From NCBI RefSeq assembly GCF_000166135.1, contig NC_014666.1, positions 1,054,001-1,118,000 on the forward strand: 64,000 nucleotides of DNA. The letters run 5' to 3'. The stretch is from Pseudofrankia inefficax (GTDB taxonomy: Bacteria > Actinomycetota > Actinomycetes > Frankiales > Frankiaceae). A program made the position numbers and the translations under genes. Position 1 is the stretch's first letter. Every line of letters starts with the position of its first letter. This document shows, one piece after another, positions 33,503-60,603 of this stretch. The notes below the pieces were generated by a model that did not search any database, had not been told where the DNA came from, and worked only from the letters and a program-made list of their open reading frames with translations.

Positions 33503-35098
33503 TCAGAGTCTCCATAGTCGGACCGTGCTGTCGGTGCTGGCGCTGGCCAGGATTCGTCCGTCCGGGGCGAAAGCCACGGACTGCACCCCGTCGGTGTGGC
33601 CGGTGAGAGGCTCACCGAGTGCCTGTGAGCGGGCCGGGTCGGTCACGTCCCATAGTCGGAGCGTGTTGTCGATACTGGCGCTGGCCAGGGTTCGTCCGTC
33701 CGGGGCGAAGGCCACGGACCGCACGTCATCGGTGTGGCCGGTGAGCGGCTGACCGAGTGCCTGTGGGCGGGCCGGGTCGGTCACGTCCCATAGCCACACC
33801 GCCCTGTCGCCGCCGGCAGTCGCCAAGGCGCGCCCGTCTGGGGAGAAGGCTACGGACGACACCCAGGCCTTCTCCTCGGTGAGACGCGCGCCGAGCCGCC
33901 GTCGGCGGGTCGGTTCGGTCACGAGAAGCGTGCCGAGCCGTTGAGGGCGGGCCGGGTCGCTCAGGTCCCACAGCTGGGTCTTGTTGTCGTCGCCGGTGGC
34001 CAGGGTCTTGCCGTCCGGGGAGAACGCCACAGCCAACATGGGGGCCTTGTCGCTGGTGAGGGGTTTGCCGAGCCGCCGTCGCCCGGCGACGTCCCACAGT
34101 CGAACCGTCTTGTCGTCGCTGGCGGTCGCCAGGATCTGTCCGTCGGGCGAGAACGCCACCGACCAGACCCAATCGGAATGCCCGGTGAGGGGCTGGCCGA
34201 GCGGTCCGGGGTCGGCTGGGTCGGTGAGGTCCCACAGTTGCACCGTCGTGTCGTCGCTGGTGGTGGCCAAGGTCTGACCGTCTGGGGAGAACGCCACTGA
34301 CAACAGCCGAGCGTTTCCGTCGAGGGGTTGGCCGAGCGGCTCGGGGTCGGCTGGGTCGGTGACGTTCCACAGCCGGACCGTTGTGTCGGCGCTGGCGGTG
34401 GCCAGGAGCTGCCCGTCTGGGGAAAAAGCCAAGGACTGCACTCCGGCGGTGTGGCCGGTGAGCGGATCGCCAAGTGGCCGTGGGCCGGCAGGATCTGCGG
34501 GAGCCGGCCGCCGGGTGGCGCGTCTGCCCTTGCTGCTGGACCAGGTCGCGTTGAGGGCGCGGGTCACGGCCGGGCTTTGCGTGGTCGGGAAGTCCGGTCG
34601 CCTGGCCGGCGGAGCCTCGCGCGGGGGCGTCGGGAAGCTCGGCGCCACAGGGGGCTTGATACGGCCATCGATCGCGCCACGGACGTGCTCAAGAAGCCGT
34701 CGGCGGGCGTCCTCCGGCGTCAGGCCGAACAGGTCAATGGACACGATCGTGCGAAGCAGACCGGGGCGCGGGCAGTCCTCAATGCGGATCGGTAGCAACT
34801 TTCGAGCGAACCCTCCCGGGTCGGCTACCTGCGCCGAGCGCCACTCCTGGGCGCCGTAGACCGAACCGAGGTAGGCGTCCGACAACACGGCGATTGTCCG
34901 CCGGGCCAACCGGATGCCCTGGTCCATCCGCGCCGCCCAGTCGGAACCCGCGACGAAGTCCCACGCCTGGATCAGAACGCTGTGTCCGGCGTCCTCCAGT
35001 TGCCAGGCCAGCCATTCGGCCCATGCTCGGTCCTTGCCCGTGTACGAGACGAAGAAGTCCCACCCTTCCGGATCAACGGGACCCCCCGTGAGCGTCAC
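33503..35098 (-). CDS. TIR domain fused to a seven-bladed WD40 propeller
   Basis: 531 residues from a GTG. Residues about 12-140 are a TIR domain: WDFFVSYTGKDRAWAEWLAW, HSVLIQAWDF, RTIAVLSDAYLGS and YGAQEWRSA, where the Glu is in the place of the catalytic Glu of TIR NADases. A Pro/Arg-rich linker (about 160-215) has no P-loop. Seven WD40 repeats follow, each with VAFSPDG-type cores and VRLWDV-type ends; the second-last residues are VRLWRL. TIR NADases act in bacterial abortive defence; a full propeller would be the sensor or scaffold. A STAND ATPase, usual between such domains, is missing. Confidence 0.88.
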   Translation of the reverse strand: MTLTGGPVDPEGWDFFVSYTGKDRAWAEWLAWQLEDAGHSVLIQAWDFVAGSDWAARMDQGIRLARRTIAVLSDAYLGSVYGAQEWRSAQVADPGGFARKLLPIRIEDCPRPGLLRTIVSIDLFGLTPEDARRRLLEHVRGAIDGRIKPPVAPSFPTPPREAPPARRPDFPTTQSPAVTRALNATWSSSKGRRATRRPAPADPAGPRPLGDPLTGHTAGVQSLAFSPDGQLLATASADTTVRLWNVTDPADPEPLGQPLDGNARLLSVAFSPDGQTLATTSDDTTVQLWDLTDPADPGPLGQPLTGHSDWVWSVAFSPDGQILATASDDKTVRLWDVAGRRRLGKPLTSDKAPMLAVAFSPDGKTLATGDDNKTQLWDLSDPARPQRLGTLLVTEPTRRRRLGARLTEEKAWVSSVAFSPDGRALATAGGDRAVWLWDVTDPARPQALGQPLTGHTDDVRSVAFAPDGRTLASASIDNTLRLWDVTDPARSQALGEPLTGHTDGVQSVAFAPDGRILASASTDSTVRLWRL

Positions 35099-38800: not shown

Positions 38801-39690
38801 TCGCTACCGGCGGCGGCGACGGGCGGGTGCTGCTGTGGGACCCGACCCTGCCCGACATCGGCCCCACCGAATTGGGCCGCCACGACCAATGGGTGTTGGC
38901 GGTGACCACACTGCTAGACGGTCGGCTCGCCAGCGGCGGAGCCGACGGCCGCATACTGAGGTGGGACCCGGCCAGGCCCAGCGCGGGCCCGACTGAACTG
39001 GGTCACGGCGTGGTGCAGGCGGCGGCCGTGCTGCCCGACGGCAGGCTCGCCACCGGCAATCTCAACGGGCCTATGCTGCTATGGGAACCGGCGGCGCCGG
39101 GCGCCGGCCCGACCGAACTGGGTCGCGACGACACCAGTGTGCTGGCCATGGCAGTGCTACCCGACGGCCGGCTCGCCACCGGCGGCGGCGACCCGCGGGT
39201 GCTGCTGTGGGACCCGGCGACACCGGGTATCGACCCGACCGAACTGGGCCGCCACGACGGCCCGGTGCCGGCGATGTACACATTGGCAACGGGTAACGGC
39301 CCCCCGATCGAAGTGGGCCGCGGCAATATCTCGGTTGAGGCGGTGGCCGTCCTGCCCGACGGCAGGATTGTCACAGGCGGCACCGATGGGCAGGTGCTGC
39401 TCTGGGACCTGACCCAGCCCGAAGCGGGACCGATCGAACTGGGCCGCCACGACGGCCCGGTGAGGGCGGTGGCCGTGCTGCCCGACGGCAGGATCGTCAC
39501 AGGCGGCACCGACCGGCGAGTGCTGCTCTGGGACCCGACGGCACCGGGCACCGAGATGGCCCAGCTGAGTTGCTCGGTGACCACACTGGCGACGGGGCCG
39601 CTAGGCCAAGACCGGTCCAGTCTGCTTGTCGTCGCGCACCAGGGCAGCGGCATCTCGTTCTGGTCTGTCATCGGCGACCAGGAGATATGA
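35857..39690 (+). CDS. Trypsin-like protease / STAND ATPase / beta-propeller conflict protein
   Basis: 1277 residues. Residues 1-215 are a trypsin fold with a complete triad: His near residue 40 (VLTAAHVV), Asp79 (PDLALVSV) and Ser178 (SGMSGGPVV). A P-loop ATPase follows: SPLVGRQRELADI, Walker A GGAWAGKTS (Lys303), Walker B LLLVVDGLDED, sensor VASRPYPAL, and a helical arm (about 470-700). From about residue 710 to the end lie at least twelve propeller repeats, each with AVLPDGRLAT-type strands and VLLWDPxxPGxxPTELGRHD-type ends. No signal peptide is present, so it is cytosolic. It is probably a sensor that activates its protease on recognition. The repeats are nearly identical at DNA level. 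Confidence 0.9.
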   Translation: MAIVPLAVRVVEVIADRGAEMSPRYRYGSGCVVAGGWVLTAAHVVAAALGVVVRTSDKVVRAAALDPRFIGDVDGPGPDLALVSVVGLDLPPMGLAKVDRDSPTGDPVERCHAIGYPAFMERAGPDGVPVRDTVDAFGHIPALSLLAGGLLSLQVSSTPRPLPPERVAVGESEWSGMSGGPVVAEGFLVGVVTEHAPRAGSSALTLTPLTALQADSDHPGWSRGVTEPAGWWARLGVSGPGALRWLPIGPVGSARPAYQATVREIHRRTSPLVGRQRELADIASFAVGSEGYRCLVGGAWAGKTSLLAEAVVAALPPQVDVVSYFLSRREADADSARFLAAVVPQLAYLVGDQEPPTADLHQLRALWQRAVDRAAAQDRHLLLVVDGLDEDLRPPGLPSVAAVLPAGVGGRAHVLVASRPYPALPGDVPVGHPLPAVQPVEVEPFAGAQELAALARQEIDELTRDDETGLAADVLGLLAAAAGPLAIEDLTALAEVAPRSAALTRKVRRLLSDRAARSVQPVGPTGARRWQFAHESLLAHARTHDDLADPDFRRRIDRWADGWRDAGWPAPTDGGDGTPRYLLDSYACTLARQPQRLSGLAGDAGWVVAAIETAGADWVLADLRRAAAADPTHPAVAATLATVTGQAHQLRLSPLLHQPGYVARQLCLQAAELAEDRLAADLRTRLRAQPGPGLVPLWTTRRASPALAAELGRHDGPVRTMTALPDGRVATAVTGGRLLAWDPAAPDADPTELGRNGRSAFPAAVRAMAVLPDGRLATAGTGGRLLAWDPAAPGTPPTELGRHDHVSAMAVLPDGRLATNEYYGRLLLWDPTQPDAAPTQLGRHGNAVAALPDGRLVTSGSLVDGQLLVWDPATPGTGPIELGYGTLQAPVVLLDGRVAAPGFDGRPLLWDPAAPGADPTELGGVNNAIKVAAALPDGRLATGSHDGRVLVWDPTLPGTDPTELGRHDDEVLAMAVLPDGRLATGGGDGRVLLWDPTLPDIGPTELGRHDQWVLAVTTLLDGRLASGGADGRILRWDPARPSAGPTELGHGVVQAAAVLPDGRLATGNLNGPMLLWEPAAPGAGPTELGRDDTSVLAMAVLPDGRLATGGGDPRVLLWDPATPGIDPTELGRHDGPVPAMYTLATGNGPPIEVGRGNISVEAVAVLPDGRIVTGGTDGQVLLWDLTQPEAGPIELGRHDGPVRAVAVLPDGRIVTGGTDRRVLLWDPTAPGTEMAQLSCSVTTLATGPLGQDRSSLLVVAHQGSGISFWSVIGDQEI

Positions 39691-46947: not shown

Positions 46948-47796
46948 CTATCTAACCTGTCGGGCTAGCCGCGCGGCGGTCGAAGGGAGCGCGGGAAGGA
47001 ACGGCTCCGAGGTCGCCAGGGCGGCCTGGTCGTGGGTCTCGTCGTAGGCGTCGAGAAGCTCGTCGGCGCCCGCGTAGAGGAGGATGTCCCTCACTACCGG
47101 GTCCGCTGCCGGGACCGGTTCGCCGTCGAGTGAGCCGAGGATCTTCTCGATCCGCTCGGCTGGGAGCCCGACCGCGGCCAGCCCACGCAGGAAGTCCCGG
47201 TAACGCGCCTGATGCTCGGGCCGCAGCCGGGACGCGAGGTCCTCGGGGAGGTCCTCGCTGGATGCGTCGGACTCGGGCGAGGCCAGATCGATCCGGAAGT
47301 TTGCCAGTGCCGGATCGGCCAGGGCGGCGCGGATCTCCGCGAGCACGCGCGGGCCCAGGCCGCGGAACTCCCGAAGCACCTCGTCCGGGAGCGCGGCCAC
47401 CTCCTGGGCGAACAGGAACGGCGCCCGCTTCAGGATGTTCGCCGTCCGGACCGACAGCAGCGCGTACAACGCCGAAACCGGCGCCCGCTCGGCCGGCAAC
47501 TCATGCAGCCCCCAGCCAGGTACCTGACCAGCCCGCAGGACCTCGCGGACCTGGTCCGCGAACTGGCTCTGACCGAGCACGAGGACTTCACGCGCCCGCA
47601 CCAGGCCATACAACGTCACCTCGTCGCCGGCCCGGTCCGCGTACTGCTCCCGAATCACCGACAAGCACGACCGGCTGTGCAGGAACTGCGGCGCGACGAC
47701 CATCAACGCCTCCCGCGCCGACCGGCCCGCCCACCCGGCCGCGGAATCCGTCATGTGAAACAGCCGACGATCAGACCCAACGGTTCCCGGGCTCAT
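46948..47796 (-). CDS. Helix-hairpin-helix protein resembling the RNA polymerase alpha C-terminal domain
   Basis: 282 residues. The middle (about 105-155) reads LLSVRTANILKRAPFLFAQE then LPDEVLREFRGLGPRVLAEI, the layout of the alpha-CTD/HhH2 fold (SVRTxNxLK, LxxxRGLGxKxLxEI). The first 100 residues (LMVVAPQFLHSRSCLSVIRE) and the Asp/Glu-rich C-terminal half are unrecognised. It may bind DNA or a polymerase-associated factor. The ATG at 47796 has GGAGG 9 bp upstream. It is the downstream neighbour of the Nudix gene. Confidence 0.65.
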   Translation of the reverse strand: MSPGTVGSDRRLFHMTDSAAGWAGRSAREALMVVAPQFLHSRSCLSVIREQYADRAGDEVTLYGLVRAREVLVLGQSQFADQVREVLRAGQVPGWGLHELPAERAPVSALYALLSVRTANILKRAPFLFAQEVAALPDEVLREFRGLGPRVLAEIRAALADPALANFRIDLASPESDASSEDLPEDLASRLRPEHQARYRDFLRGLAAVGLPAERIEKILGSLDGEPVPAADPVVRDILLYAGADELLDAYDETHDQAALATSEPFLPALPSTAARLARQVR

Positions 47797-47877
47797 ACAG
47801 GAACACCTCCAGATCTTCAGGACGCACGCCAGATTCGGGACATAGACCCGGGGCTCTGGGGCACTTGATGGCTGAGG

Positions 47878-48405
47878 TCAGACGTGGCCGTCCTGAAGGT
47901 ATGAGGCCACGCCACGTTCGAGTGCGGTGAGGGCGGCTTGGGCGCGGCGCCATACGTAGGGGCGCAGTAGCCGCGCGGCTTCGTTCGGTGCGCAGAAGCG
48001 GACGGCGGCGAGTTCTGGGTCGCAGGGATGGAGCGCGTGGGCTCGGTCGGCGGGCAGAGTGCCGCCGTCGAAGACGAAGGCCAACAGGTCGTCCCAGGGG
48101 CCGTGTGGGGAGACCCAGTCCACGCACAGCAGTTCGCCCACGGGTAGGTCGAGGTCCAGTTCTTCTTTCAGTTCGCGGCGCAGCGCGTCACGGGGTGGTT
48201 CGTTGGCTTCGGCCATGCCGCCGGGGAGGTCCCAGTCGGGTTTGTAGGTCGGGTCGACTAGCAGGATGCGTCCGTTTTCGTCGCGGACGAGGGCGTCTGC
48301 GGAGACTCGTTTGCGGGCTTGTCGGGCGTTGCCGTCGGCGAGGCGGGCGAACTCAGCGGCGTCCCGGCCCCGTTGGCTGCCCTCCCACTCCTGCGCGGTG
48401 CTCAT
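47878..48405 (-). CDS. Nudix hydrolase
   Basis: 175 residues. The Nudix box is GMAEANE-7-RELKEELDLD, with all acidic metal ligands kept and Asp replacing the usual final Gly. The family hydrolyses nucleoside diphosphates linked to another group; the substrate is not evident. The ATG overlaps the XRE regulator's stop (ATGA at 48402-48405). XRE/TPR-Nudix pairs are frequent in actinomycete accessory regions. Confidence 0.92.
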   Translation of the reverse strand: MSTAQEWEGSQRGRDAAEFARLADGNARQARKRVSADALVRDENGRILLVDPTYKPDWDLPGGMAEANEPPRDALRRELKEELDLDLPVGELLCVDWVSPHGPWDDLLAFVFDGGTLPADRAHALHPCDPELAAVRFCAPNEAARLLRPYVWRRAQAALTALERGVASYLQDGHV

Positions 48406-49757
48406 GCCAGCTGGCCGGCTGGCAGCGCCGTGGCGACGCGGCCGAGGAGATCGTCGACGACCGGTAGGCCGAGGTGCGGTTCGAGTCGGCGGCCCAGCGT
48501 CCGCAGGTGGTCGACGACGCGGTCGGAGTCCAGACGCGTCGCGGCGTCGAGCACGCGGTTACCGGCCTCGCAGGTCGCGTCGAGGTCGCCGCGCCCGAGG
48601 TGGACGGTCGCGAGGGTGAGGTTGGTGAAAGCGCGGCTTCGGACTCGGTCTGGTGTGCGCAACTCCAGGACGCGCAGGGCCTCGCGTTCGGCCGCCGTCC
48701 AGTCGTTGAGATCGCGCAGGCAGATCGCGGCTTCGGCGGCGAGCGCCGCTTCGTCGAATGGGCTCAGCCATTCGTCGCCGGTGGGGATCGCGCGAGCCAG
48801 TTCTTGTTCGGCGTCCCGCAACGCGGCAAGGCTGGCGGCCGATGAGCCCGCCAGGGCGTTTCCTCGGGCCGTCATCACGTGCAACCGGCTTCGCAGCGCC
48901 CCGCACTGCGGATCATCCGGCGTCAGCGCGAGTCCCGCCATGGCGAGGCGGACGGCGTCGTCCGGGCGGTCATTTTCCAAGGCTAGCTGGCTCTGGCTGA
49001 CGAGGGTTTGTGCGCTGAGTGCCTGGTCGCCGGCCGCGGTAGCGAGGCCGAACGCCTGGACGAAGTGCTGGGCGGCGAGGTCGCCGCGGTTGTCGTCGTA
49101 GGCTAGCCATCCCGCCATGTCCGTCAGCGACGCCGCGGCTGAGAAGATCGCCGATGGTGGGTATTGGTCGCCGACCAGGTGCGGAGCGACCTCCGTCTGG
49201 AGGAACCTGACGACCACGGGGTACAGCCGGCCGCTACCGAGTTGGCGATCGGCGGCCCGGAAGGCGAGCGCAGCGGACCGGATCATATCGAGTGTTCCTC
49301 CGGCCACGGGGACCGGCCGCGACGGCTCGGCGCTGGCCACCATGACCGCCGCCGGCGTCGATCTCGGTTGCCCGGGGAGGTCGAACCACAGCAGGCGTGG
49401 CGGTATGCGCAGCGTGCGTGCCCAGTGCGCCAGCCGGTCGAGATCGCGGACAGGTGGCCCGGTCTCGATCCTGCTGACCTGAGCCTGCGTCATGCTGAGC
49501 CACCGGGCCAGCCGCTCCTGGCTGATGATCCGGGGATGGTGGGGGTTCAGGCGATAAGCCACGGAGACCCGCCCGATGTGTTGGGCAGTGAACGCATCCC
49601 GCAGGTGGTCGGTGTGCCAGAACTGCTCCGGCACTGCGGGCGCGGTGTCAGGCGCTAGCCGGCTTTGACGGTCGCATCGGGCGCACACGGGGTTGGTGTT
49701 GTCGCGTGCCAGCCGATTCCCGCACGAGCGGCAGTAGCGGCTCGACGCGGTGTCCAT
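48402..49757 (-). CDS. Zinc-ribbon/XRE-HTH/TPR regulator
   Basis: 451 residues. A small zinc ribbon opens the protein (YCRSCG then VCARC). An XRE helix-turn-helix (ISQERLARWLSMTQAQVSRIETG) is followed by a 300-residue TPR-like helical region (QHFVQAFGLATAAGDQALSA). Such regulators often sense peptides or metabolites and control nearby secondary-metabolism genes. The start at 49757 was chosen because the zinc-ribbon Cys pairs begin there, and GAGGAG lies upstream. It is coupled to the Nudix gene and is 2.2-7 kb from the FxLD genes. Confidence 0.85.
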   Translation of the reverse strand: MDTASSRYCRSCGNRLARDNTNPVCARCDRQSRLAPDTAPAVPEQFWHTDHLRDAFTAQHIGRVSVAYRLNPHHPRIISQERLARWLSMTQAQVSRIETGPPVRDLDRLAHWARTLRIPPRLLWFDLPGQPRSTPAAVMVASAEPSRPVPVAGGTLDMIRSAALAFRAADRQLGSGRLYPVVVRFLQTEVAPHLVGDQYPPSAIFSAAASLTDMAGWLAYDDNRGDLAAQHFVQAFGLATAAGDQALSAQTLVSQSQLALENDRPDDAVRLAMAGLALTPDDPQCGALRSRLHVMTARGNALAGSSAASLAALRDAEQELARAIPTGDEWLSPFDEAALAAEAAICLRDLNDWTAAEREALRVLELRTPDRVRSRAFTNLTLATVHLGRGDLDATCEAGNRVLDAATRLDSDRVVDHLRTLGRRLEPHLGLPVVDDLLGRVATALPAGQLA

Positions 49758-49990
49758 GATGGTGCCCTGCTCCTCGTTGCGACCGTCCGGGTGCGATTCG
49801 CCTGCAGTGTAAATCCATGGCGCCCTGACGGGTGTGGGTTTAGTCGCGCCGCGTATGAGGGTCATACATGAACCGGCATAGCCCGTCTCGTCTGGTCTGC
49901 GCACGCTTACGGCACGCTCTCGGGGCCGAGCCGAGGACGACTCCTCGGCCTCGGGCGCTAGCCAGCGGCCGAACCCGGACGGAGGTAGCT

Positions 49991-50407
49991 GTGGACACCG
50001 GGCCGATCCCGAACCATCCGACGAGCGAACCAGTACGAACGGTGTACGGCTACATCAGCGTCGAACACACCGACGAAGCCGTCATCGAACGTCTGCGCAC
50101 CCGGCTCACCGAGCACGCCCGCGCGGTAGGCATGAGCCTCACCGAGATTTTCATCGATCGCTGCGTACCCCCGGGGCGTGTCGTGCGACCTGGCCTCAAC
50201 GTTCTGCTCGACACCATCCTGCGATCGGGTGGTGATGTCCTCGTGATCGAGGTCGATCACCTTTCCTCGCTGCCTGCGGTGCGCCGAGCGATCGAGGTCG
50301 AGATCGAGGTGCTCGGAGCGCGCCTCCATACCGCCACCGCCCCCAAGGCTGGCGAACATCAGGTTGGGCCGCAGACGCGGCCCGTTGCGCGTCGGACGAT
50401 CGCATGA
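49991..50407 (+). CDS. Resolvase-like protein lacking the catalytic serine
   Basis: 138 residues. The fold is that of the serine-recombinase catalytic domain: VYGYISVEHTDEAVIERLRT, IFIDRCVPPGR, LDTILRSGGDVLVIEVDHLS. The motif YxRVS is changed to YISVE, so the Arg and the nucleophilic Ser of real resolvases are Ser and Glu. There is no DNA-binding HTH. It probably cannot recombine DNA and may be a protein-binding or regulatory domain. The GTG has GGAGG 5 bp upstream; the stop overlaps the ATPase gene's ATG (ATGA). Confidence 0.75.
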   Translation: MDTGPIPNHPTSEPVRTVYGYISVEHTDEAVIERLRTRLTEHARAVGMSLTEIFIDRCVPPGRVVRPGLNVLLDTILRSGGDVLVIEVDHLSSLPAVRRAIEVEIEVLGARLHTATAPKAGEHQVGPQTRPVARRTIA

Positions 50408-51084
50408 GCCTCCCGCGAACGGCGCCTCCACGGTCCGTGCCCCGTAAGCCGGTGACGAGTACGGGCTTCCATGCGCCTGCCGGGCGGCCCGCGACCGAGC
50501 TTGTCGCGGTGGCTCGATTGTCGCCGTGCGACGCGGCGGTACCCGTGGTCCGTGCGCAGGCCGTCGCGACGCTGACGGCCTGGTCGGTCGACAGCCAGGC
50601 GGTCGAGGTCGCCGAGTTGGTCGTGTCCGAGCTGGTGACCAATTCCGTGCGCGCTAGCCGTCCCCGGGACGAGTTCGTCGCGGTCCGGCTGTCCACCACC
50701 AGCGGTTGCGTGCTGGTCGAGGTGTGGAGTCGACCCGACACCACCTTGCCCACGGCGCAGCACCCAGACGGGGACAGCGAATCGGGCCGAGGCCTGTGCC
50801 TCGTCGAGGCGCTCACCGACCGGTGGGGCTCCTACCGTGCGACCTCGGGCGGGATTGTCGTCTGGGCACAGTTCCCCGGCGCTGTGGTGCCTGTGCAGCG
50901 CCTCCACGACGAGCAACCGCTGCCCGCGCGTACCGCGCGACCAGTACCGGAACCGAGGGTCGCTCCGGCGCGCGCACCCGGCCTGCCAGACATCACCTTC
51001 AGTACCGATCCCGCGGTCCTGGCACGGACTGCCGAGCGCCTGCGTGCGCTCGATGCCTGGCACCACCACCCAGTCCCGTGTTGA
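50404..51084 (+). CDS. GHKL ATP-binding protein (anti-sigma-factor kinase-like)
   Basis: 226 residues. The GHKL domain (about 35-160) shows the N-box ELVVSELVTNSVRAS and the G-box GRGLCLVEALTDRWG. It is the RsbW/SpoIIAB-like kind common in actinomycetes as regulators that bind or phosphorylate anti-sigma antagonists. A Pro/Arg-rich C-terminal 60-residue tail has no recognised domain. It is translationally coupled to the resolvase-like gene. It might control a sigma factor for the lanthipeptide genes next door, but that is inference. Confidence 0.85.
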   Translation: MSLPRTAPPRSVPRKPVTSTGFHAPAGRPATELVAVARLSPCDAAVPVVRAQAVATLTAWSVDSQAVEVAELVVSELVTNSVRASRPRDEFVAVRLSTTSGCVLVEVWSRPDTTLPTAQHPDGDSESGRGLCLVEALTDRWGSYRATSGGIVVWAQFPGAVVPVQRLHDEQPLPARTARPVPEPRVAPARAPGLPDITFSTDPAVLARTAERLRALDAWHHHPVPC

Positions 51085-51256
51085 CCGGCCCGTGGCGAAT
51101 GCCGGCCGTAGCCTTCCTTGCCGAGCATGACGACAGTCTGGAGGCCGGCTGGGCCGCGCTCTATCTGCCTGCCACACCTCACTTGGGAGCTCGCGGTGAT
51201 GGGGGCAAGCGTGACACGAGAGAAACGGTCAGTGACCGACGAACTACGCTGAGAGG

Positions 51257-52504
51257 GTGATCCTAGAGGTGGGAACTGCCGACGCAGACAGACTGAGAAA
51301 CGCGATGGTCGACGGCCTGCGGCCGTGGGGCGCGGCGCTGAGCGGCCCGGTAGACGCGGCGATGCGGACCGTGCCACGGCACGTGTTCGTGCCCGGCGTC
51401 TCGCTGGAACGCGCCTATGGGCCGGACCCGGTGGTGACCCATCGCGACGGCGAGGGAGTGCCGGTCAGCTCGGCCTCCGCCCCGGGCACGGTCGCCGGGA
51501 TGCTTGAAAAGCTCGACGTGCGTCCTGGCCAGCGGGTTCTGGAAATCGGTGCTGGGACTGGGTACAACGCGGCGCTGCTCGCCCAGCTGGTTGGCCCGAC
51601 GGGTTCTGTGACCACGATCGAGTACGACGAGGCCGTGGCGTCCGCTGCGCGTGCCGCGTTGAGCGGCCTGGGCGTGGCTGTGACGGTGGTGCACGGGGAC
51701 GGCATGCTCGGCGCGCCTGGACAGCCGACGTTCGACCGGATCGTGGTCACCGCGGGTGCCTGGGATATCCCGCGTGCCTGGTGGCAGCAGTTGGCCGAGG
51801 ACGGGCGTCTGGTGGTGCCGCTGCGGATACTCGGACTGACCCGGACGGTGGTCTTCGAGCGGGCCGGGGCGGTGCTGCGTAGCCGATCGGTCATGGAGGA
51901 CGGGTTCATGCCGATGCGCGGCGTCGGTGCGGTTCGTGAGCAGAACATCTCGGTCGGTCCCGGCCCGGACCTGGTGGTCCGGCTCGATGACGAGCGCGCG
52001 GTGGATGCCTCGGCGCTGCAGGACGCGTTGGATCATCCTGCGGCGGTGTGCTGGACCGGTGTCGCGGTTGCGTGGGGTTGGACGGAGCATCTCGATTTCT
52101 GGCTGGCCACGCTGGAGGGCTTCTGTCGACTCTTGGTGTCGCGGGCTGCGGTCGATGACGGCCGGCTGATGACGCCGAAGGGCCCGTGGGGAAGCATGGG
52201 CCTTGTCGAGGGTGGGACGTTGGCGTATCTGACGACGCGTCCGGGTCCGACCGAGGACGCCGCGATGCCGACCTATGAGATCGGTGCCTGCGGCTACGGG
52301 CCGCGGGGCGCCGATCTGGCGGCCCGGCTCGCCGAGCGGGTACGCGACTGGGATCGTGATGGTGGCCAGGGTGTCCAGTTGTGGATCGAGGCGCACCCCG
52401 GGAGCGCCGGACGTCCTGAGGTGTCGGGCGTGCTGCTCGCGGTCGACAAGCGCGACAGCCGGGTTCTTGTCCTCGTAGCGGAACAGGCAGCCGCCGCGGT
52501 CTGA
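51257..52504 (+). CDS. FxLD-system O-methyltransferase (protein-L-isoaspartate methyltransferase-like)
   Basis: 415 residues. The N-terminal 200 residues are PCMT-like: AMRTVPRHVFVPGVSLERAYG, VPVSSASAPGTVAGMLEKLD and VRPGQRVLEIGAGTGYNAAL, with the SAM-binding GAGTG. The C-terminal half is the extension found in the FxLD lanthipeptide methyltransferases. Homologues (OlvSA-type) methylate a core Asp, which then cyclises to a succinimide and opens to isoaspartate. The GTG at 51257 is adjacent to GAGAGG; a GTG at 51269 is an alternative. It converges with lanC, leaving only 20 bp between the stops. Confidence 0.88.
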   Translation: MILEVGTADADRLRNAMVDGLRPWGAALSGPVDAAMRTVPRHVFVPGVSLERAYGPDPVVTHRDGEGVPVSSASAPGTVAGMLEKLDVRPGQRVLEIGAGTGYNAALLAQLVGPTGSVTTIEYDEAVASAARAALSGLGVAVTVVHGDGMLGAPGQPTFDRIVVTAGAWDIPRAWWQQLAEDGRLVVPLRILGLTRTVVFERAGAVLRSRSVMEDGFMPMRGVGAVREQNISVGPGPDLVVRLDDERAVDASALQDALDHPAAVCWTGVAVAWGWTEHLDFWLATLEGFCRLLVSRAAVDDGRLMTPKGPWGSMGLVEGGTLAYLTTRPGPTEDAAMPTYEIGACGYGPRGADLAARLAERVRDWDRDGGQGVQLWIEAHPGSAGRPEVSGVLLAVDKRDSRVLVLVAEQAAAAV

Positions 52505-52524
52505 CCGGCGGTGTCGGGGCCGTG

Positions 52525-53796
52525 TTAGGACAAGAGCAGCAGGGCGTCCCAGGCCGTGTGCAGGTCATGGGAAACGGGGAACGCGGCGTGCTCGGCGAGC
52601 GCGAGCGCCGTTCCGGCAGCGCCGGTGAGGAAACCGGGCCGGTCGGTGGCCGTGCTGCCGGCGACGTGTGCGAAGCAGAAACGGTGCGTCGGGTCGAACG
52701 CGTCGGCAACTGCGGTCGCCGCTTGCCTGGCAAGAACTGGGTGGTGCATGGCATGGGCGGTGCGTAGGACACCGGCGTGCCCATGGCACAGCGTCGGCCC
52801 GTCGACATCCCAGCGGCCCGGCCGGTCCGCGAGCGCGCGCAGCGCGTCGCGCGTGGCGTCCTGCGTCGTGGATTCCTGGCCGGCCTGGCCGGCGAGCGTG
52901 AGCGCGCGGCTGATGCCAGGGATGCCGTAGCACCAGGCGTCGGCGCGTCCGACTGGCGGGTCGGCGCGGCCGGCATCGAGTTCGTCGCCGGTGATATGCG
53001 GCGGCCAGGTCCCTGTTCGTTCGTCGCGCCAGCGCAGCAGCCAGGCGGCGGCCTGGGTGATGGCGTCGCGCTGCCCCGGGACGGTGCATCCGGCCTGGTG
53101 CCCGATGGCGAGTAGCGCGAGCGGTCCCGCGATGCCGTGGGCCATGCCGGTGGTCGCCGCGCCGGAAGGATGCGCGTTGACGGCGGCTGGGTGGCGGTCT
53201 GCGGGCAGCCACCAGCCGGGCCGGCTTCCGGCCGGTTGGTTGATCAGTCGGGCGAGCGTCGTCAGGGCAGCCAGGAGACCGGGTTCGGCGGCAGCGTGTC
53301 CTGACTGGTGGGCGGCGAGCAGGACCCGGCCTGCCCCGGCGAGGCCGGTGATGACGTCGTAGATGTGCCAGGGCGTGCTCACCGACCCGTGGACGAGGGC
53401 CGCGCGGTGGTGCTCGGCGAGGGCGACGGCCTGTGCGGACAGCCAATGAGTGGCTCTGGTGGTGCTCGTGGCGTAGCTGGCCGGGTCTGGGAGATAAGGA
53501 ACGCCGATGATCAGCGACGCGGCAAGGCCAGCGCCAGCGTGGAAGACCCCGAGGTGGTTTGCGTCTCGCGGCGTCTGGCGGGCTGCGTGAGTCCAATGGT
53601 CCGCCGCCGCCGAGGTGAAATCTGGGTGGAGAACTGCCAGCCGGGCGTGTAGCAGCGCAGTTCCAGGCAGGCCGTCGGCAAGACTGCCAGCGGCCCCGGC
53701 CGCGAGAGCCTCCGTCACGGTCTCGGGACGTAGCAGCCGTTCGGCGACGGCGAGGCATTGCCGCTCCGCGTCGCCCCTCAGCGCGTCGTCGGTCAT
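52525..53796 (-). CDS. LanC-like lanthionine synthetase (cyclase)
   Basis: 423 residues with the LanC alpha-barrel repeats. The zinc and catalytic residues are all visible: His220 in TTGMAHGIAGPLAL, Cys289 in DAWCYGIPGISRAL, and Cys337/His338 in TLCHGHAGVLR. It adds core Cys thiols onto dehydrated Ser and Thr to make lanthionine rings. Its ATG overlaps the lanB stop (ATGA at 53793-53796). The order precursor-lanB-lanC is that of class I lanthipeptide operons. Confidence 0.95.
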   Translation of the reverse strand: MTDDALRGDAERQCLAVAERLLRPETVTEALAAGAAGSLADGLPGTALLHARLAVLHPDFTSAAADHWTHAARQTPRDANHLGVFHAGAGLAASLIIGVPYLPDPASYATSTTRATHWLSAQAVALAEHHRAALVHGSVSTPWHIYDVITGLAGAGRVLLAAHQSGHAAAEPGLLAALTTLARLINQPAGSRPGWWLPADRHPAAVNAHPSGAATTGMAHGIAGPLALLAIGHQAGCTVPGQRDAITQAAAWLLRWRDERTGTWPPHITGDELDAGRADPPVGRADAWCYGIPGISRALTLAGQAGQESTTQDATRDALRALADRPGRWDVDGPTLCHGHAGVLRTAHAMHHPVLARQAATAVADAFDPTHRFCFAHVAGSTATDRPGFLTGAAGTALALAEHAAFPVSHDLHTAWDALLLLS

Positions 53797-56693
53797 CGTG
53801 ACGCCGTCTCGCGGGCGAGGAGGCCGGCCGCCAGAGCCCTGGCGATGCGTTCTTGGGCGGTGTCGCCGAGGAGCCGGTTGGCATGCATGTGGATCACAGA
53901 GGAGGCGCAGTCCGCGCGCCGCCCGGCAGCCAGACGGTCGTGATAGGCGCGCAGCGCGTCTGACTGCCTCTCCCACGCGGGGTGAGACAAAGGGAGGGCG
54001 ATTGTGCCGTCGCGGACCGCGTCGGTTACGAGGCGGCGCAGCTCGGCGAGACGGCGGTGGGAGGCCCGGTCGAGGCGAGGGCGGCCGAGCGCGGCGGGAT
54101 CACCGTCGGCGACGGTGCGCGCCACCGTCGCTGCGGTCAGCGCGGCCACGACGAGCCGCTGGTCGGGCTCATCGGTCGCGGCCAACGCCGCGAGCACCAG
54201 GTCGCTGTCGACCGCAAAAACCTCCTCGGCTGCCTCGATCGTCGACGGGCCGCCGTAGCGCTCGATCTCCTGGTCGTAGGGCTCGACGCTGAATCCCCGG
54301 GCGAGGGCGTCCGCCACCAGTCGCGCCCCCCATTCGGAGACCGCGGGCAGCAGCTGGCCGCCGAGTATTGCCGGCGCGCCGTGGAATCGGACCCGCAGAT
54401 GAGGGCCGATGGCCGGGCTGCGGTAGCGCAGCCAGAACCAGCGGTCGAACAGTCCCCGCAGGCCCGGGAGGAGCGCCGCGAGGCCGGTGAGGATCTCGTC
54501 ATGCTGATCTGTCGGTGCGCCGATCGTGAGCGACAGCCAGGGGCCGCCCGGCAGGTGAAGCCCTGCGCCGGCCGGCCGGGGTAGCGCGCTGATCGGACGA
54601 GGTGGGGCTGGCAGCGGTTTCGTGGCGGCGAGCGGGATGACGAGTTCGAGCAGATGGCGGCCGGAGGGGCCGGTGACGACGTCCTGGATGGTGCCGTCGC
54701 CGCCGGGCTGTTCGGTGACGGCACGAAGCCCGCGCCGTACGTAGCGGCGTAGCAGCTCCGCGTCCCGCGGGTCGTCGAGGTCGAGGGGGAGCTGTCGTTC
54801 GCCATCGTCGGTGACGACCACATTGGGCAGGGGTGGGACAGTGGACAGCCGCCAGGAGGTCAGCTGCGCCGCCCACACCGACGGTTCGCTGGCGGCGTCC
54901 GTCAGCAGCCTCGGCAAGCGCCACCGGGCGGGCGCGACAATCGTCGACCGGTACCGCACCCGTGGCTGGAAAGCGGTGTCACGTAGCGACCCCCAGGAAA
55001 ACAGGCACCACGGCCGGGATCCTGATCGGCCCAGCAACGCCAGGAGCCGGGCCTCCGCCGGTAGGTAACGCGGCCCGATCCGGGAGTTCAGTACCGGCAC
55101 GACCTGACACCCGCGTTCCTGTGACCACAGGGTGAGGCGGTCAGTGTCGGCCACGACCAGCAAGTCGTCGAGTCGCAGATCACCGTGTCGGGTAGGGACC
55201 CCGACAGGGATACGAAGCTGGGCCACACCGGTCGGAGGGGCGACCGTCGCAAGCACCGGAATGCGGGGGCGGACTACGACTTCGGCGACGAGCGCGCCCG
55301 CCGGAGGGTCGGGAACCCGCGGCTGGCTGCCCGGCAGCAGTGAGGTGAACCGGCCGGCGCTCGACCCGGCGTCCTGGGTGCCACCGACGTAGAGCGCGAG
55401 GTGTAGCCGGCCGGCCGCCAGGTCCTGTTCCGAGGAGGCGAGCACGCGGGCGTACGCCTCCGCACCCGGCGGCGGTGGCTCGGCGCCGGGCGCCCCGAGC
55501 GCGGCAATGGTCGCCTCGTCCAGGACAACCTCAGCCTGGCCGCGAACGGTTGCGTCGCCGAGGACAGCGGCGAGGACCGCGAGGCGTTCCGGAGATGCCT
55601 GCGCTGACTGGATGCTGGTCTCGATGCCTTCGTCGCCCAGGCCGAGGACCGGGTCGACGACCTCCAGGAACGGGACGAACCGGCCGTGCCCCCAGCGTTC
55701 GACGAAATGGGCGTGGTAAGCGGCGAGCGTCGGCATCGCGCAGCTCATCGTCCACAGCACGCTGACGGCCTCGGCGGCGTCCTGAAGCAGCCTGCGCGGC
55801 ACGGTGATGGCCGCGTCGGCGGCGACGTCCACACACAGCGGGTTGTCCTGGCCGCAGACGTGGGCGGAGGACTCTCGCGCGGAGGTGAGAGCCGCGAGCC
55901 GACGTGCTGACCCCAGCGGGAGTTCGTCAGCGGCGCGCAGCTGGTCCCGCAGACCCGCCAACGGTCCGTCGACGTCGCAGCCGTCGGGCAGCCGGCCGAG
56001 CAGGTGCCGGATTGGATCGTCTCCCAGATCGTCGGGCAGCAGGTCGGTCAGCAGGAACCCTTGGCGAGTCATCTCGACGACCATGCCGCGCATCACGGCT
56101 TCCGGGACGGCCGGCCAGCGGTCAATCACTGCGGCCCTGATGGCGTCGTAGCCGGCCCCCTGCTCGCAGGAACGCAGGACGAGGGTGGTCGCCGCGGTCG
56201 CTCGGATGGACACGAGTTCCGGCGCGCCGGAACCGAGCGCCGGCCGCTCTCGCTCGAACCGCTGGCCGCGGCGGCGGACCAGGTTGTTCGTCGTCAACGT
56301 GAGTCGCTCGACGACGCCGGGAGCGTCCAACAGTTTCTCGGCGAGGACGGTCAGCGAAACCGGGCTCGGGGCGCTGCGAGAGCGATGATCGCCGCCGAGA
56401 CGCAGCGCGCAGCCACGTTCGGCGACGACCACCGTCTGGACGCCCGCGAACACGGCTCGCGGAGTCGGGCGTAGCCGCGCGCGACGGTCGAAGGCGCGGA
56501 CCGTTGCCGCGAGGCGGCCGTCGCCGCATGCGCCGAGGACCGAGGGAACGGCCGTCCGTGAGGTAAGCGTGATCCCCTCGGCCAGGACCGGGTCCAAGAC
56601 CCCGCCTTCCCCATCACCGCCACCCGCCGGAAGCATCGGGATGCGCGCCAACACCGCGGCGCCCGGCAAAGGCGCGAACAGCCGTGAACGCAC
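53793..56693 (-). CDS. LanB-type lanthipeptide dehydratase
   Basis: About 966 residues. The N-terminal glutamylation part starts RLFAPLPGAAVLARIPMLP and includes the family blocks TLTTNNLVRRRGQRFER, GLGDEGIETSIQSA, CLFSWGSLRDTAFQPRVRY and PRYLPAEARLL. The C-terminal elimination (SpaB_C) part contains GGPWLSLTIGAP, GLFDRWFWLRYRSPAIGPHL and EPYDQEIERYGG. It uses glutamyl-tRNA to dehydrate core Ser and Thr. The GTG at 56693 lies 12 bp after the precursor stop and leaves the core intact; GTG 56723 or TTG 56735 would overlap the precursor gene. It ends coupled to lanC. Confidence 0.93.
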   Translation of the reverse strand: MRSRLFAPLPGAAVLARIPMLPAGGGDGEGGVLDPVLAEGITLTSRTAVPSVLGACGDGRLAATVRAFDRRARLRPTPRAVFAGVQTVVVAERGCALRLGGDHRSRSAPSPVSLTVLAEKLLDAPGVVERLTLTTNNLVRRRGQRFERERPALGSGAPELVSIRATAATTLVLRSCEQGAGYDAIRAAVIDRWPAVPEAVMRGMVVEMTRQGFLLTDLLPDDLGDDPIRHLLGRLPDGCDVDGPLAGLRDQLRAADELPLGSARRLAALTSARESSAHVCGQDNPLCVDVAADAAITVPRRLLQDAAEAVSVLWTMSCAMPTLAAYHAHFVERWGHGRFVPFLEVVDPVLGLGDEGIETSIQSAQASPERLAVLAAVLGDATVRGQAEVVLDEATIAALGAPGAEPPPPGAEAYARVLASSEQDLAAGRLHLALYVGGTQDAGSSAGRFTSLLPGSQPRVPDPPAGALVAEVVVRPRIPVLATVAPPTGVAQLRIPVGVPTRHGDLRLDDLLVVADTDRLTLWSQERGCQVVPVLNSRIGPRYLPAEARLLALLGRSGSRPWCLFSWGSLRDTAFQPRVRYRSTIVAPARWRLPRLLTDAASEPSVWAAQLTSWRLSTVPPLPNVVVTDDGERQLPLDLDDPRDAELLRRYVRRGLRAVTEQPGGDGTIQDVVTGPSGRHLLELVIPLAATKPLPAPPRPISALPRPAGAGLHLPGGPWLSLTIGAPTDQHDEILTGLAALLPGLRGLFDRWFWLRYRSPAIGPHLRVRFHGAPAILGGQLLPAVSEWGARLVADALARGFSVEPYDQEIERYGGPSTIEAAEEVFAVDSDLVLAALAATDEPDQRLVVAALTAATVARTVADGDPAALGRPRLDRASHRRLAELRRLVTDAVRDGTIALPLSHPAWERQSDALRAYHDRLAAGRRADCASSVIHMHANRLLGDTAQERIARALAAGLLARETASR

Positions 56694-56704
56694 TGGTGGT
56701 CCCG

Positions 56705-56884
56705 CTAGTCGCAGTTCCTGCACGTGGCCGAGCAACCCACACTCGGGCAGGTGGCGGAGCAGCCGTCGTCCGTGCAGTCCGTTGTCGTGTTCGAGTCGAC
56801 GATGTCGGGTACCGGCGCCACCCGAGTACCGAGGTCGAACAAGTCCGCGGTGAGGCGGTCAAGAACTGCCGTGTCCTCTGACAT
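56705..56884 (-). CDS. FxLD-type lanthipeptide precursor
   Basis: 59 residues. The leader (about 1-26) carries LFDLGTRV, matching the F-x-L-(D) box that binds LanB, though Gly replaces the usual Asp. The core is rich in Cys, Ser and Thr: six Cys (37, 42, 46, 51, 55, 58), two GCSATC units (41-46, 50-55) and an Asp40-Gly41 step suited to isoaspartate formation. GAGGGGAG lies 5 bp before the ATG. It is the first gene of the lanB-lanC operon. Nine Ser and Thr are available from residue 33 for up to six rings. Confidence 0.9.
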   Translation of the reverse strand: MSEDTAVLDRLTADLFDLGTRVAPVPDIVDSNTTTDCTDDGCSATCPSVGCSATCRNCD

Positions 56885-57360
56885 GGGAACTCCCCTCATT
56901 TGGGCCGTCGCCGCCGGCGGCCAGGACGAAGTCAACTGGGCCGGCCCCCGGACCCCGTGGCGAGGGAGCGACAGCACCCAGTCAACTGTGACAGCCAGAA
57001 GGCACACCGATCCGCCAATCCGGCGTTTGCAGCTACTGAGCCCGGCCTGCGGTCAGGAAACCGCCCAAGACGGCCGGTCTAGTTCTGAAACACCCTGAGC
57101 GTCGGCTCTTCGGGAGAAAGATCGCCATACCAGAGATCGCATAGCAGGCATACATAACACGCATAGACAGCTCCGCGAGGAGTCCTAGTCTGCCCCGATA
57201 GCGGCGCGCGTGAACCAGGATGCGAGGGGGTGGAGGTGGTGAGGTCCGGGTTCGGCGGCGGCCTTCGACGGCATCAACGCCGGGACGGAGAAACCCCAGG
57301 ACGCCACTGTCTCTTCGCTGCACGAACAACATCTGATACGGGCGGGGGACATCGGCAGCC
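56885..57360. promoter_or_regulatory. Divergent control region between the precursor and the Methyltransf_19 genes
   Basis: 476 bp with no gene. An AT-rich patch (57121-57180) includes two direct CGCATAG repeats at 57138-57144 and 57160-57166, 22 bp apart (two helical turns). That spacing suits a dimeric regulator serving one or both directions. No textbook -35/-10 pair was placed with confidence. Confidence 0.5.
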
Positions 57361-58212
57361 ATGACCTTGGACTATCCCGAGCGCCAGCTTGGTGGTATCG
57401 ATCTGCGCACGGATGTGCCGCACTCCGCGCGCATGTACGACTACTATCTGGATGGGAAGAACAACTTTCCGCCAGATCGGAAAGCTGCTGAGCTTGTGTT
57501 GGCGGAGTTTCCGCAGGCGAGGACCGTCGCACGCCAGAACAGGGATTTCCTGCGCCGCGCTACCCGGTTCCTCGCCGCCCACGTGGGTATTCGACAGTTC
57601 CTCGACGTCGGTACCGGGATTCCGACATCGCCTAATCTCCACGAGGTCGCCCAGGCGGTTAGCCCGGCTGCGCGGGTCGTCTACGCGGACAATGATCCGA
57701 TCGTGTTAGCCCATGCCCGCGCACTGCTGACGAGTCATCCGGAAGGCGCGACCGCCTACCTGGACGCGAACCTTCTCGACCCCGCGCGGATCCTCGGCTC
57801 CGACGAGGTTCGGGACACGTTGGACCTGACCCACCCGGTCGGCCTGTCGCTGATCGCGGTCCTGCATTTCCTGCCCGACGATGTCGACCCGCACGGCATC
57901 GTCGTGGCGCTGCTGGACGGCCTACCCGCGGGCAGCTATCTGACGCTCACCCACGCCACCGGCGACTTCGCCCGCGCCCAGGCCGACCAGGCCGCCGCCG
58001 TCTACCGGGCCCGCGGCATCCCCGCCCAGACGCGCAGCCGCGCCGAGGTCGAATGTTTCTTCGACGGCCTGGAACCGGTGGCCCCAGGTGTCACAGTGGC
58101 GCACCGCTGGCGCCCCGACGCCGCAGGTGCCGCTAAAGCGCCGGGCCGAGACGGCGGCACGTTGACGGACGCCGAGGTTTCCTGCTACGCGGGCGTCGGG
58201 CGTAAACCGTGA
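57361..58212 (+). CDS. SAM-dependent methyltransferase, Methyltransf_19 (DUF574) family
   Basis: 283 residues. The family N-terminus is clear (DVPHSARMYDYYLDGKNNFP), followed by QNRDFLRRATRFLA, the SAM motif FLDVGTGIPTSPNLHEVAQA, and YADNDPIVLAHARALL. This family is abundant in streptomycetes and frankiae and its targets are unknown. It begins a four-gene plus-strand unit diverging from the precursor, with its paralogue 54 bp downstream. Confidence 0.92.
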   Translation: MTLDYPERQLGGIDLRTDVPHSARMYDYYLDGKNNFPPDRKAAELVLAEFPQARTVARQNRDFLRRATRFLAAHVGIRQFLDVGTGIPTSPNLHEVAQAVSPAARVVYADNDPIVLAHARALLTSHPEGATAYLDANLLDPARILGSDEVRDTLDLTHPVGLSLIAVLHFLPDDVDPHGIVVALLDGLPAGSYLTLTHATGDFARAQADQAAAVYRARGIPAQTRSRAEVECFFDGLEPVAPGVTVAHRWRPDAAGAAKAPGRDGGTLTDAEVSCYAGVGRKP

Positions 58213-58266
58213 TCCGCCCGCGCGGCTTAGTCCATTTCCTTTTCTTTCTGCTAGGGAGCGCACGTC

Positions 58267-59133
58267 ATGCCCTCGGTCGACCCCGACGATCGGCTGCCGT
58301 GGCAGGCTTCCGAATTCATGTTCGGGCTGGGTGGGTTGGATGTGGGTCGGGCGCAGTCCGCCCGGATCTTCAACTATCTGCTGGGTGGGAAGGACAACTT
58401 CCCGGTCGACCGGGAAGTCGGTGACAGCGCGCTGTCGGTGTTTCCGAGCCTGGGCGTGCTGGCGTGGGAGAGCCAGGCGTTCATGCGCCGCGCGGTTGCC
58501 TATCTGGCCCGTGCGGGGTTTCGGCAGTTCCTGGAGATAGGCGTCGGCCTTCCCGTCCGCCGCAATCTGCATGACGTGGCTCAGCGGATCAACCCGGCCG
58601 CAACGGTCGTCTACGTCGATCACGACCCGATGGTGGTCCTGCATGCCCGCGCGTTGCTGACGTGTCGGCCGCCGGGCTGGACCGGCGTCGCGCAGGGCGA
58701 CCTGCGTGACCCGTCGGGCATCCTCGCCCAGCCGGCGCTGGCGTGTTTCGCCCCTGACGAGCCGGTTGTCCTGAGCCTGATCGGGGTCCTGCCGTTCCTC
58801 GCCGACGCCCACGACCCGTACGGCGTGGTCGCGACGCTTCTCGCGGGGCTGCCGGCGGGCAGCGCGGTGATGCTGACGCATCTGACCGGCGACCAGGCGC
58901 CCGAACCCGTCGGCCAGTTGGTGGGCGTCTACGAGGCGGCGGGCATTCCTGTCCAGGCGCGTAGCCGTGCCGAGGTCGCCGGTTTCCTCGGCGGTCTGGA
59001 GTTGCTCGGCCCGGGTCTGGTCTCCTGCCAGCGCTGGCACCCGGCCCCGGCCGACCTCGCCGAGCTCACCGACCTCGTCGCTTCGCCGACCGACGGGGAG
59101 GTCAGCTGCTATGGCGTCGTCGCCCGCGCCTAG
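58267..59133 (+). CDS. SAM-dependent methyltransferase, second Methyltransf_19 paralogue
   Basis: 288 residues, the same layout as the gene before: SARIFNYLLGGKDNFPVDRE, SQAFMRRAVAYLARAGFRQF, LEIGVGLPVRRNLHDVAQRI and VDHDPMVVLHARALL. The SAM motif is EIGVG, not DVGTG. GGGAG precedes the ATG by 8 bp. It is clearly a diverged duplicate of its neighbour. Whether either acts on the lanthipeptide is unknown. Confidence 0.92.
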   Translation: MPSVDPDDRLPWQASEFMFGLGGLDVGRAQSARIFNYLLGGKDNFPVDREVGDSALSVFPSLGVLAWESQAFMRRAVAYLARAGFRQFLEIGVGLPVRRNLHDVAQRINPAATVVYVDHDPMVVLHARALLTCRPPGWTGVAQGDLRDPSGILAQPALACFAPDEPVVLSLIGVLPFLADAHDPYGVVATLLAGLPAGSAVMLTHLTGDQAPEPVGQLVGVYEAAGIPVQARSRAEVAGFLGGLELLGPGLVSCQRWHPAPADLAELTDLVASPTDGEVSCYGVVARA

Positions 59134-59224
59134 ACGCCCGGCCTCCCGCGACGGAGGTACACGGACGGCCAGTCGACCTCCATCGACCGCGCGGCTGCGC
59201 GGCGACGATGGCGGGGCTGGCGGT

Positions 59225-59677
59225 GTGGCGCGGGTGCCCTGGCTGCGGCTGCCCGTGGGAACGGGCAGGTTACTGATCCGCCGCTGGCCCGGCCACACCG
59301 GCGATGACGGGCAGGACCCGGTCGCGGACCTGATCAGCGACGCCGCCGGCGTGACGTTCCGCCCGGTACGACCGGCGGAGGCGGCGCGAGCGGCGATCGC
59401 GCTCGCCCGCCTCGACCACGTGCGCCACGTGGTGATCTGCCCGGTCAACGGAGCGCCTGGGCAGATGGCGCTGGCGCTCGCGGTCGGTGATCTGCTCACC
59501 CCGCCGTCGCAGCGCGGGCTGCCGGCGACGGTGACCTGCGGGACCCAGCCGCCGCTGGACGGCGGCCTGATCACCGTCGAGCACGACGTGGTCCTGACGG
59601 CCCCGGGTGGGCGTAGCGACCGGGTCGTCTGGCAGATCTTCGTCACCCACCCGGGGTGTTCTGGAGGGGTCCTGTGA
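59225..59677 (+). CDS. Unknown 150-residue protein in the SpaB_C unit
   Basis: The frame opens from the GTG at 59225 and its TGA overlaps the next start (GTGA at 59674-59677). No domain is recognised. Protein-like patches include VRHVVICPVNGAPGQMALAL and GGLITVEHDVVLTAPGG. It has a single early Trp-rich stretch (VPWLRLPVGTGRLLIRRW). Coupling to the elimination-domain gene suggests a partner role, by context only. Confidence 0.55.
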   Translation: MARVPWLRLPVGTGRLLIRRWPGHTGDDGQDPVADLISDAAGVTFRPVRPAEAARAAIALARLDHVRHVVICPVNGAPGQMALALAVGDLLTPPSQRGLPATVTCGTQPPLDGGLITVEHDVVLTAPGGRSDRVVWQIFVTHPGCSGGVL

Positions 59678-60603
59678 TCGAGCGACCTGTGTCGGCGGTG
59701 TCAGTGGGGCGGATGGTCGACGCGGTGCGCGCGGCGCTGGCCGGTGGTGATCTGTGTGAGGTCGCGGCGACGCATGGTCTGACGGCCGACCGCCTTTCTG
59801 CGGCGATCGCGGCGTATCACGAGGCCGGCAGCGTGGCGTTGGCGCGGCCGGGGGACCGTTGGTACGCCAGCCGGCTGATGTTCCCCACCCAGGCCTATCC
59901 CGAGACAGTCATGGCCCAGGTCGTGGGCCCGGTCCTGGACAGCCTGGAGTCCTGGGGCACAACGGTCGACTGGTGGTTCCTGCGGCGGGAGAGCGACTGG
60001 CGGGTCCAGCTGCGCTACCCGGACCCGGCCGTCCTCGGGGAGTTCCTCCACGACCTCGGCAAGAGACGGCCGGTCGCGGCGACGCAGCCGCAGATCCACG
60101 AACCGGACGTGGCGGCGTTCGGCGGAATGACCGGGACCACGATCGCCTACGAGCTGTTCGTCGCGGACAGCCGCGGCATCCTCGACCACGCCCGGCGGAT
60201 CGACCCGCCGCTGGGACGGCGCGACCTGGCGATCGCCCTCGGAGACCTGCTCCTTGCCGGGGCCGGCCTGACCTGGACAGCCCGGGGCGGGGTCTACGCC
60301 GGTCTCGCGGCCGGCTCGCCTCCCGGTGAGGCGGCGGGGCCGGCAGGGGCCGGGCCGGTGGGTGCCCACCTGTACTCGTTTGTGACCGACGCGGCCACCC
60401 GTGCGGCGATCAACGGGCGGTGGGCCGCCGCCGCCATGACCGCCGGGGAGCGCCTGGCCGACGCCGCCCACGACGGCCTGCTGACCCGCCCGATCACCGA
60501 CATCCTCGCCGTCCTGCTCCGCGCTCACTGGGCCCGCCTCGGACTATCCGCCCCCGCCCGCGCGGACCTCATCCGCACCGCGACCGACGCCTACCACCAG
60601 TGA
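59674..60603 (+). CDS. Stand-alone SpaB_C/thiopeptide-type bacteriocin biosynthesis protein
   Basis: 309 residues. After a short helical N-terminus, the protein is the SpaB_C fold of lanthipeptide and thiopeptide dehydratases: GDRWYASRLMFPTQAYPET, VDWWFLRRESDWRVQLRY, FGGMTGTTIAYELFVADSRG. This domain removes glutamate to leave dehydro-residues. The LanB here already has its own copy, so this would be a second eliminase or a helper. The GTG at 59674 follows GGAGGGG by 5 bp; a GTG at 59656 is also in frame. It is the last gene of the plus-strand unit. Confidence 0.88.
   Translation: MIERPVSAVSVGRMVDAVRAALAGGDLCEVAATHGLTADRLSAAIAAYHEAGSVALARPGDRWYASRLMFPTQAYPETVMAQVVGPVLDSLESWGTTVDWWFLRRESDWRVQLRYPDPAVLGEFLHDLGKRRPVAATQPQIHEPDVAAFGGMTGTTIAYELFVADSRGILDHARRIDPPLGRRDLAIALGDLLLAGAGLTWTARGGVYAGLAAGSPPGEAAGPAGAGPVGAHLYSFVTDAATRAAINGRWAAAAMTAGERLADAAHDGLLTRPITDILAVLLRAHWARLGLSAPARADLIRTATDAYHQ

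Follow-up and report, generated by a model that had tools for sequence, protein, structure and literature searches.

A predicted lanthimiditide cluster with an FDLG leader and an Asp-Asp-Gly core in Pseudofrankia inefficax

A four-gene lanthipeptide locus

We analyzed a stretch of 64,000 nt from Pseudofrankia inefficax (NC_014666.1, positions 1,054,001 to 1,118,000; hereafter the window) and found at 51257-56884 an intact set of four genes for a precursor peptide, a LanB, a LanC and a PIMT-type methyltransferase, with the expected catalytic motifs kept. The precursor gene, lanB and lanC follow one another on the minus strand, while the methyltransferase gene lies on the plus strand, convergent with lanC. 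The same four genes had been named in a preliminary description, which does not mention the opposite strand of the methyltransferase gene, and their coordinates proved exact, with matching families and intact motifs. Neither a peptidase nor a transporter was identified among the cluster genes. By its family scores and motifs, which support the earlier reading of a class I lanthipeptide whose cluster includes an aspartyl O-methyltransferase, the locus is classified as a class I lanthipeptide cluster carrying a LanSA/PAMT methyltransferase (a "lanthimiditide" cluster). We consider it likely, with good confidence, that it is an intact minimal cluster of the aspartimide-forming kind.

The precursor gene (56705-56884, minus strand, starting at 56884) encodes 59 aa, MSEDTAVLDRLTADLFDLGTRVAPVPDIVDSNTTTDCTDDGCSATCPSVGCSATCRNCD, with an FDLG-box leader and a Ser/Thr/Cys-rich core around SNTTTDCTDDGCSATCPSVGCSATCRNCD. 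Six cysteines (positions 37, 42, 46, 51, 55, and 58), two GCSATC repeats and a single Asp-Gly step, D40-G41, were all confirmed on this sequence as previously described. The open reading frame is taken to be a real gene because a Shine-Dalgarno-like gaggggag stands 5′ of its ATG and because dN/dS is approximately 0.24 against the Frankia relative L059 and approximately 0.15 against L015. The precursor adjoins lanB and is conserved (77% identity to L015, 83% to L059, and 59% to L016), and conservation together with dN/dS rules out a chance small ORF. It belongs to a divergent minimal subgroup of precursor-LanB-LanC-methyltransferase (A-B-C-MT) clusters.

The leader box, F16-D17-L18-G19, has Gly where FxLD ends in Asp, as the preliminary description had pointed out, and is a variant within the family. 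L059 also has FDLG, as does a distant precursor (L320), which rules out an error or the sign of a dead leader; the remaining precursors of the subgroup have FxLD, or FxLN in L312. Since the FDLD box contacts arginines of MadB and is described as important in complex formation (PMC12241602), a weaker or altered contact between the FDLG leader and LanB is possible.

The lanB gene (53793-56735, minus strand) overlaps the 3′ end of the precursor gene by about 31 nt and encodes a full-length dehydratase of 980 aa, a length counted from a TTG codon, the exact start being uncertain. Both the glutamylation domain (PF04738, 496 bits) and the elimination domain (PF14028, 140 bits) are present, and the motifs PHLRVRF, QEIERYGG, and SSVIHMHANRLLG align with the elimination-site motifs of NisB. 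The 423-aa LanC cyclase (52525-53796, minus strand; PF05147) was aligned with NisC and MadC, and its GMAHGIAG, DAWCYG, and LCHGHAG correspond to the zinc and catalytic motifs of NisC, including the zinc ligands and the catalytic His.

The methyltransferase gene (51257-52504, plus strand) starts with GTG and encodes 415 aa. The protein scores 425.2 bits against TIGR04364 (cut-off 320), as expected for a LanSA/PAMT enzyme, and comprises a PCMT domain (PF01135, residues 14-219) and, after it, a C-terminal domain some 190 aa long, where a domain of >100 aa related to the C-terminal one of the T. maritima PIMT is a mark of PAMTs; its cognate precursor has the TxDGC core that also marks PAMTs. Motif I and the PIMT-family residues are present. 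An AlphaFold model (mean pLDDT 86, pTM 0.86) found its best fold match in the Thermotoga maritima PIMT 1DL5, over 376 columns and both domains; the superposition is loose (rmsd 10.6) and the relative placement of the domains uncertain, and we therefore claim only the domain make-up. The 1DL5 fold defines RiPP PAMTs (PMC10787088).

In the proposed pathway, LanB would bind the leader, glutamylate core Ser/Thr residues from Glu-tRNA and eliminate glutamate to give dehydro residues, to which LanC would add Cys thiols, forming (methyl)lanthionine rings that include a small Thr38-Cys42 ring. The methyltransferase would then esterify one Asp within this ring, most likely Asp40 of TDDGC, and the ester would collapse with Gly41 to a succinimide that opens mostly to isoaspartate. 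Both the order of steps and the succinimide/isoaspartate outcome are inferred by analogy with OlvA/OlvSA; OlvSA comes after the B and C enzymes, its substrate Asp lying within a MeLan ring (PMC13001092).

The candidate aspartates

The codons of T38-D39-D40-G41-C42 (56759-56773, minus strand) carry the TxDGC motif. Lee et al. examined 1305 lanthipeptide clusters that contain a PIMT-type enzyme and described this motif in the core of most of their precursors (PMC10787088). We compared this motif across 180 unique actinomycete precursors gathered from the genomes searched. Thr occupies position 38 in approximately 174 of the 180, and Ser in the others. At position 40, 168 have Asp, nine Asn, and three Gly. 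About 63% have Gly at position 41 and about 28% have Asn there, and the Cys two residues past position 40 is conserved. LanB sister groups with no methyltransferase nearby (L113; L099 and L100 within 1.5 kb) have no such motif. A Dhb38-Cys42 ring enclosing the modified Asp is thus predicted, and Asp40 is the best-supported modification site, as it fits the published motif and is conserved in 168 of the 180 precursors. The preliminary description had singled out Asp40-Gly41 as the best place for aspartimide or isoaspartate formation, a proposal that holds in this respect, but not if read as naming the sole candidate, and it made no mention of the adjacent Asp39. Asp40 as the only candidate is ruled out by relatives with TDNGC (Asp39-Asn40-Gly41), which occur both in the window subgroup (L016, L017, L018, L094, L095, and L096) and outside it (L196 and L311).

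Since the close relatives with TDNGC swap Asp40 for Asn and keep Asp39, the site in the window subgroup may instead be Asp39, the pathway being otherwise the same and the methyltransferase acting one residue off the TxDGC site. Asp39 is invariant in the window and in L015, L059, and the six TDNGC members of the subgroup listed above, position 40 being Asp or Asn, and it is present in 11 of the 12 precursors that lack Asp40 vs. 81 of the 168 that have it. The association (Fisher p = 0.003 raw, 0.04 by clusters at 65% identity) is weak given that the sequences are related; it suggests that at least one Asp is needed at position 39 or 40. Both Asp and Asn are described as possible n+1 residues in a review that covers OlvSA (PMC13001092). 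However, L104-L108, which fall in the same LanB subgroup as the window, have Asp40 only (TNDGC or TSDTC), and position 40 is favored by the OlvA-type precedent and by the broad family. Asp-Asp also forms a succinimide less readily than Asp-Gly. We therefore regard modification at Asp39 as unlikely.

The site may also shift within the subgroup, between position 40 (TNDGC and TSDTC) and position 39 (TDNGC), either through two registers of the methyltransferase or through deamidation of Asn40-Gly41, a reading that we hold only tentatively. Asn-Gly is a classic fast deamidation site. In the deamidation alternative, Asn40-Gly41 would give the same succinimide spontaneously and the enzyme would act on the resulting isoaspartate. 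The L265 precursor has TSNGC, in which Asn40-Gly41 is present and Asp is missing from both positions 39 and 40; if the site does shift, this precursor would be the best natural example in favor of the deamidation route. Together, TDDGC, TDNGC, TNDGC, TSDTC, and TSNGC, each with orthologous or related enzymes, make up a natural panel bearing on Asp selection by a RiPP PIMT and on whether Asn-Gly can replace Asp-Gly. For the window, Asp40 remains the preferred assignment.

Genomic neighborhood, relatives and decay

A stand-alone elimination-domain protein (59656-60603, plus strand; PF14028, 59 bits) is encoded 2.8 kb from the precursor gene, beyond two Methyltransf_19 (DUF574) genes that are its partners (57361-59133, plus strand). 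It could belong to the pathway and alter the stereochemistry of dehydration, because extra elimination domains, alongside a full-length LanB, are a known type of class I cluster (PMC7268733) and because a separate elimination protein can set Dhb geometry, as SptBb does in making (E)-Dhb for SapT (PMC9890492). Despite this precedent and the short distance, such a role seems quite unlikely: the gene is absent from all orthologous A-B-C-MT loci examined, and its closest relatives sit in a DUF574-elimination-domain module, sometimes with a PCMT-like gene, that in two cases (L199 and L200) lacks a LanB within the stretch read. These relatives, in other Frankia loci, are 53-72% identical, with one at 46% (L200), and each adjoins a DUF574 gene; a PCMT-like gene comes next in three (L196-L198). 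Such loci occur whether or not a lanthipeptide cluster lies close by. As no orthologous locus has the gene and it travels with DUF574 genes, we ruled out 59656-60603 as a part of the core cluster, and the elimination-domain and DUF574 genes probably form a separate Frankia module outside it. The region 57361-60603 and loci L195-L200 constitute a recurring arrangement of this kind, possibly a separate RiPP-like unit.

A LanB scan of genome contigs yielded five loci. Scanning one further family (f17) added nine LanB proteins, 46-50% identical and spread over eight genomes; one of the nine is that of the L017 cluster. The set of precursor, LanB, LanC, and methyltransferase is orthologous in an Actinomycetota MAG (L015), two Pseudonocardiales MAGs (L016 and L018), and Sphaerisporangium corydalis (L017), and was also found in several further genomes. 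L015 and L016 share the convergent layout of the window. In contrast to the window, all four loci keep an FxLD leader, and L016-L018 have TDNGC where the window has TDDGC. The tree places the LanB proteins of the subgroup in a group separate from ordinary FxLD LanB. The methyltransferase of the L017/L110 branch falls with other TIGR04364 proteins than do those of the rest of the subgroup, and enzymes may therefore have been exchanged.

Within the Frankiaceae the cluster is decaying, with the window copy intact. In G156 (L059) the flanking regions retain synteny, at a DNA identity of 83% for window positions 47875-51107 and 77% for 56645-57242, and the interval 51107-56645 is missing, and with it the methyltransferase gene, lanC, and the greater part of lanB; L059 10973-11152 represents this deleted version, in which the precursor and the first 30 lanB codons are left. 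Pieces of LanB and methyltransferase 83-87% identical to those of the window were found in Frankia sp. CiP1, and in G254/CiP1 (L114/L019) lanB, lanC, and the methyltransferase gene are broken into several frames, with no precursor found. Decay in two other Frankiaceae genomes shows that the product is dispensable. The window cluster might likewise be a decaying remnant whose product is no longer made, a reading that draws on the L059 deletion, the frameshifts in L114/L019, and the loss of the leader FxLD Asp from the window precursor. We judge it very unlikely, as all four reading frames are intact in the window with catalytic motifs kept and the precursor is under purifying selection. That only rings are formed, the methyltransferase being a canonical repair PIMT or inactive, is highly improbable: the PCMT domain does match housekeeping PIMTs by sequence and relatives are losing the cluster, but the TIGR04364 score lies well over the cut-off, the protein has its own C-terminal domain and conserves motif I and the PIMT-family residues, and the gene accompanies the precursor gene at all intact orthologous loci that have sequence on both sides. 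We thus retain the reading of an intact, aspartimide-forming cluster.

Beside the cluster, 48402-49757 (minus strand) encodes an NsdA-family TPR regulator with an HTH domain, which is not specific to the cluster because it is syntenic in L059, where the cluster has been deleted. Elsewhere in the window, a TIR domain is fused to WD40 repeats at 33503-35098 (minus strand; PF13676 and PF00400), near a trypsin-like/WD40 protein at 35857-39690 (plus strand); proteins combining TIR and WD40 can act as immune-type effectors. The protein encoded at 46948-47796 (minus strand) has a domain like the C-terminal one of RNA polymerase alpha (PF03118, 27 bits), outside any rpoA context.

The genome of P. inefficax, 8.8 Mb on one contig, holds two further loci of related type. 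At approximately 1.84 Mb (L013 8241-9685), a second TIGR04364 methyltransferase gene adjoins an FxLD precursor, LTDDNCGTTCQSAC, with no LanB nearby; as a search of the genome gave only two LanB proteins, this precursor would need dehydration in trans. A complete ordinary FxLD cluster at approximately 8.49 Mb (L014) has a TNDGC precursor together with a methyltransferase, LanB, LanC, and a stand-alone elimination domain.

Comparison with known systems

The preliminary description had called the locus an FxLD cluster. This agrees with the TIGR04364 score of the methyltransferase, but not with the precursor, which gave no match to the NCBI FxLD model TIGR04363 (cut-off 30), where two ordinary FxLD precursors score about 63 and the L015 precursor 10.9 bits. 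The window shares with the FxLD family (TIGR04363 and TIGR04364) the methyltransferase, a T-x-D-z-C core, and the F-x-L leader box, and differs in its precursor and in its LanB, which is only about 28-35% identical to ordinary Frankia FxLD LanB. Nor did the precursor match NF038155, the FDLD family of class I lanthipeptides (cut-off 20), for which the subgroup members L106 and L312 score 17.2 and 18.8, just below the cut-off.

The core sequence had no match in the literature searched, and the precursor had none among the plasmids searched, a result whose limited scope makes it no proof of novelty. The earlier suggestion of a new product sequence stands for one more product and not for its chemistry or cluster type, both already known from OlvA/OlvSA (PMC13001092). 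Lanthimiditide-type peptides are very common in actinomycetes, and the window adds one more predicted member with its own sequence. The OlvA/OlvBCSA lanthimiditide system of Streptomyces olivaceus (Acedo et al. 2019, as presented in PMC13001092) resembles the window in its class I LanB, LanC, and PIMT-type methyltransferase, and in a conserved Asp within a small (Me)Lan ring. Compared by description, the window departs from it in having an FDLG leader, LanB and methyltransferase of a divergent subgroup, and a different core, in which Asp-Asp-Gly takes the place of a single clear Asp.
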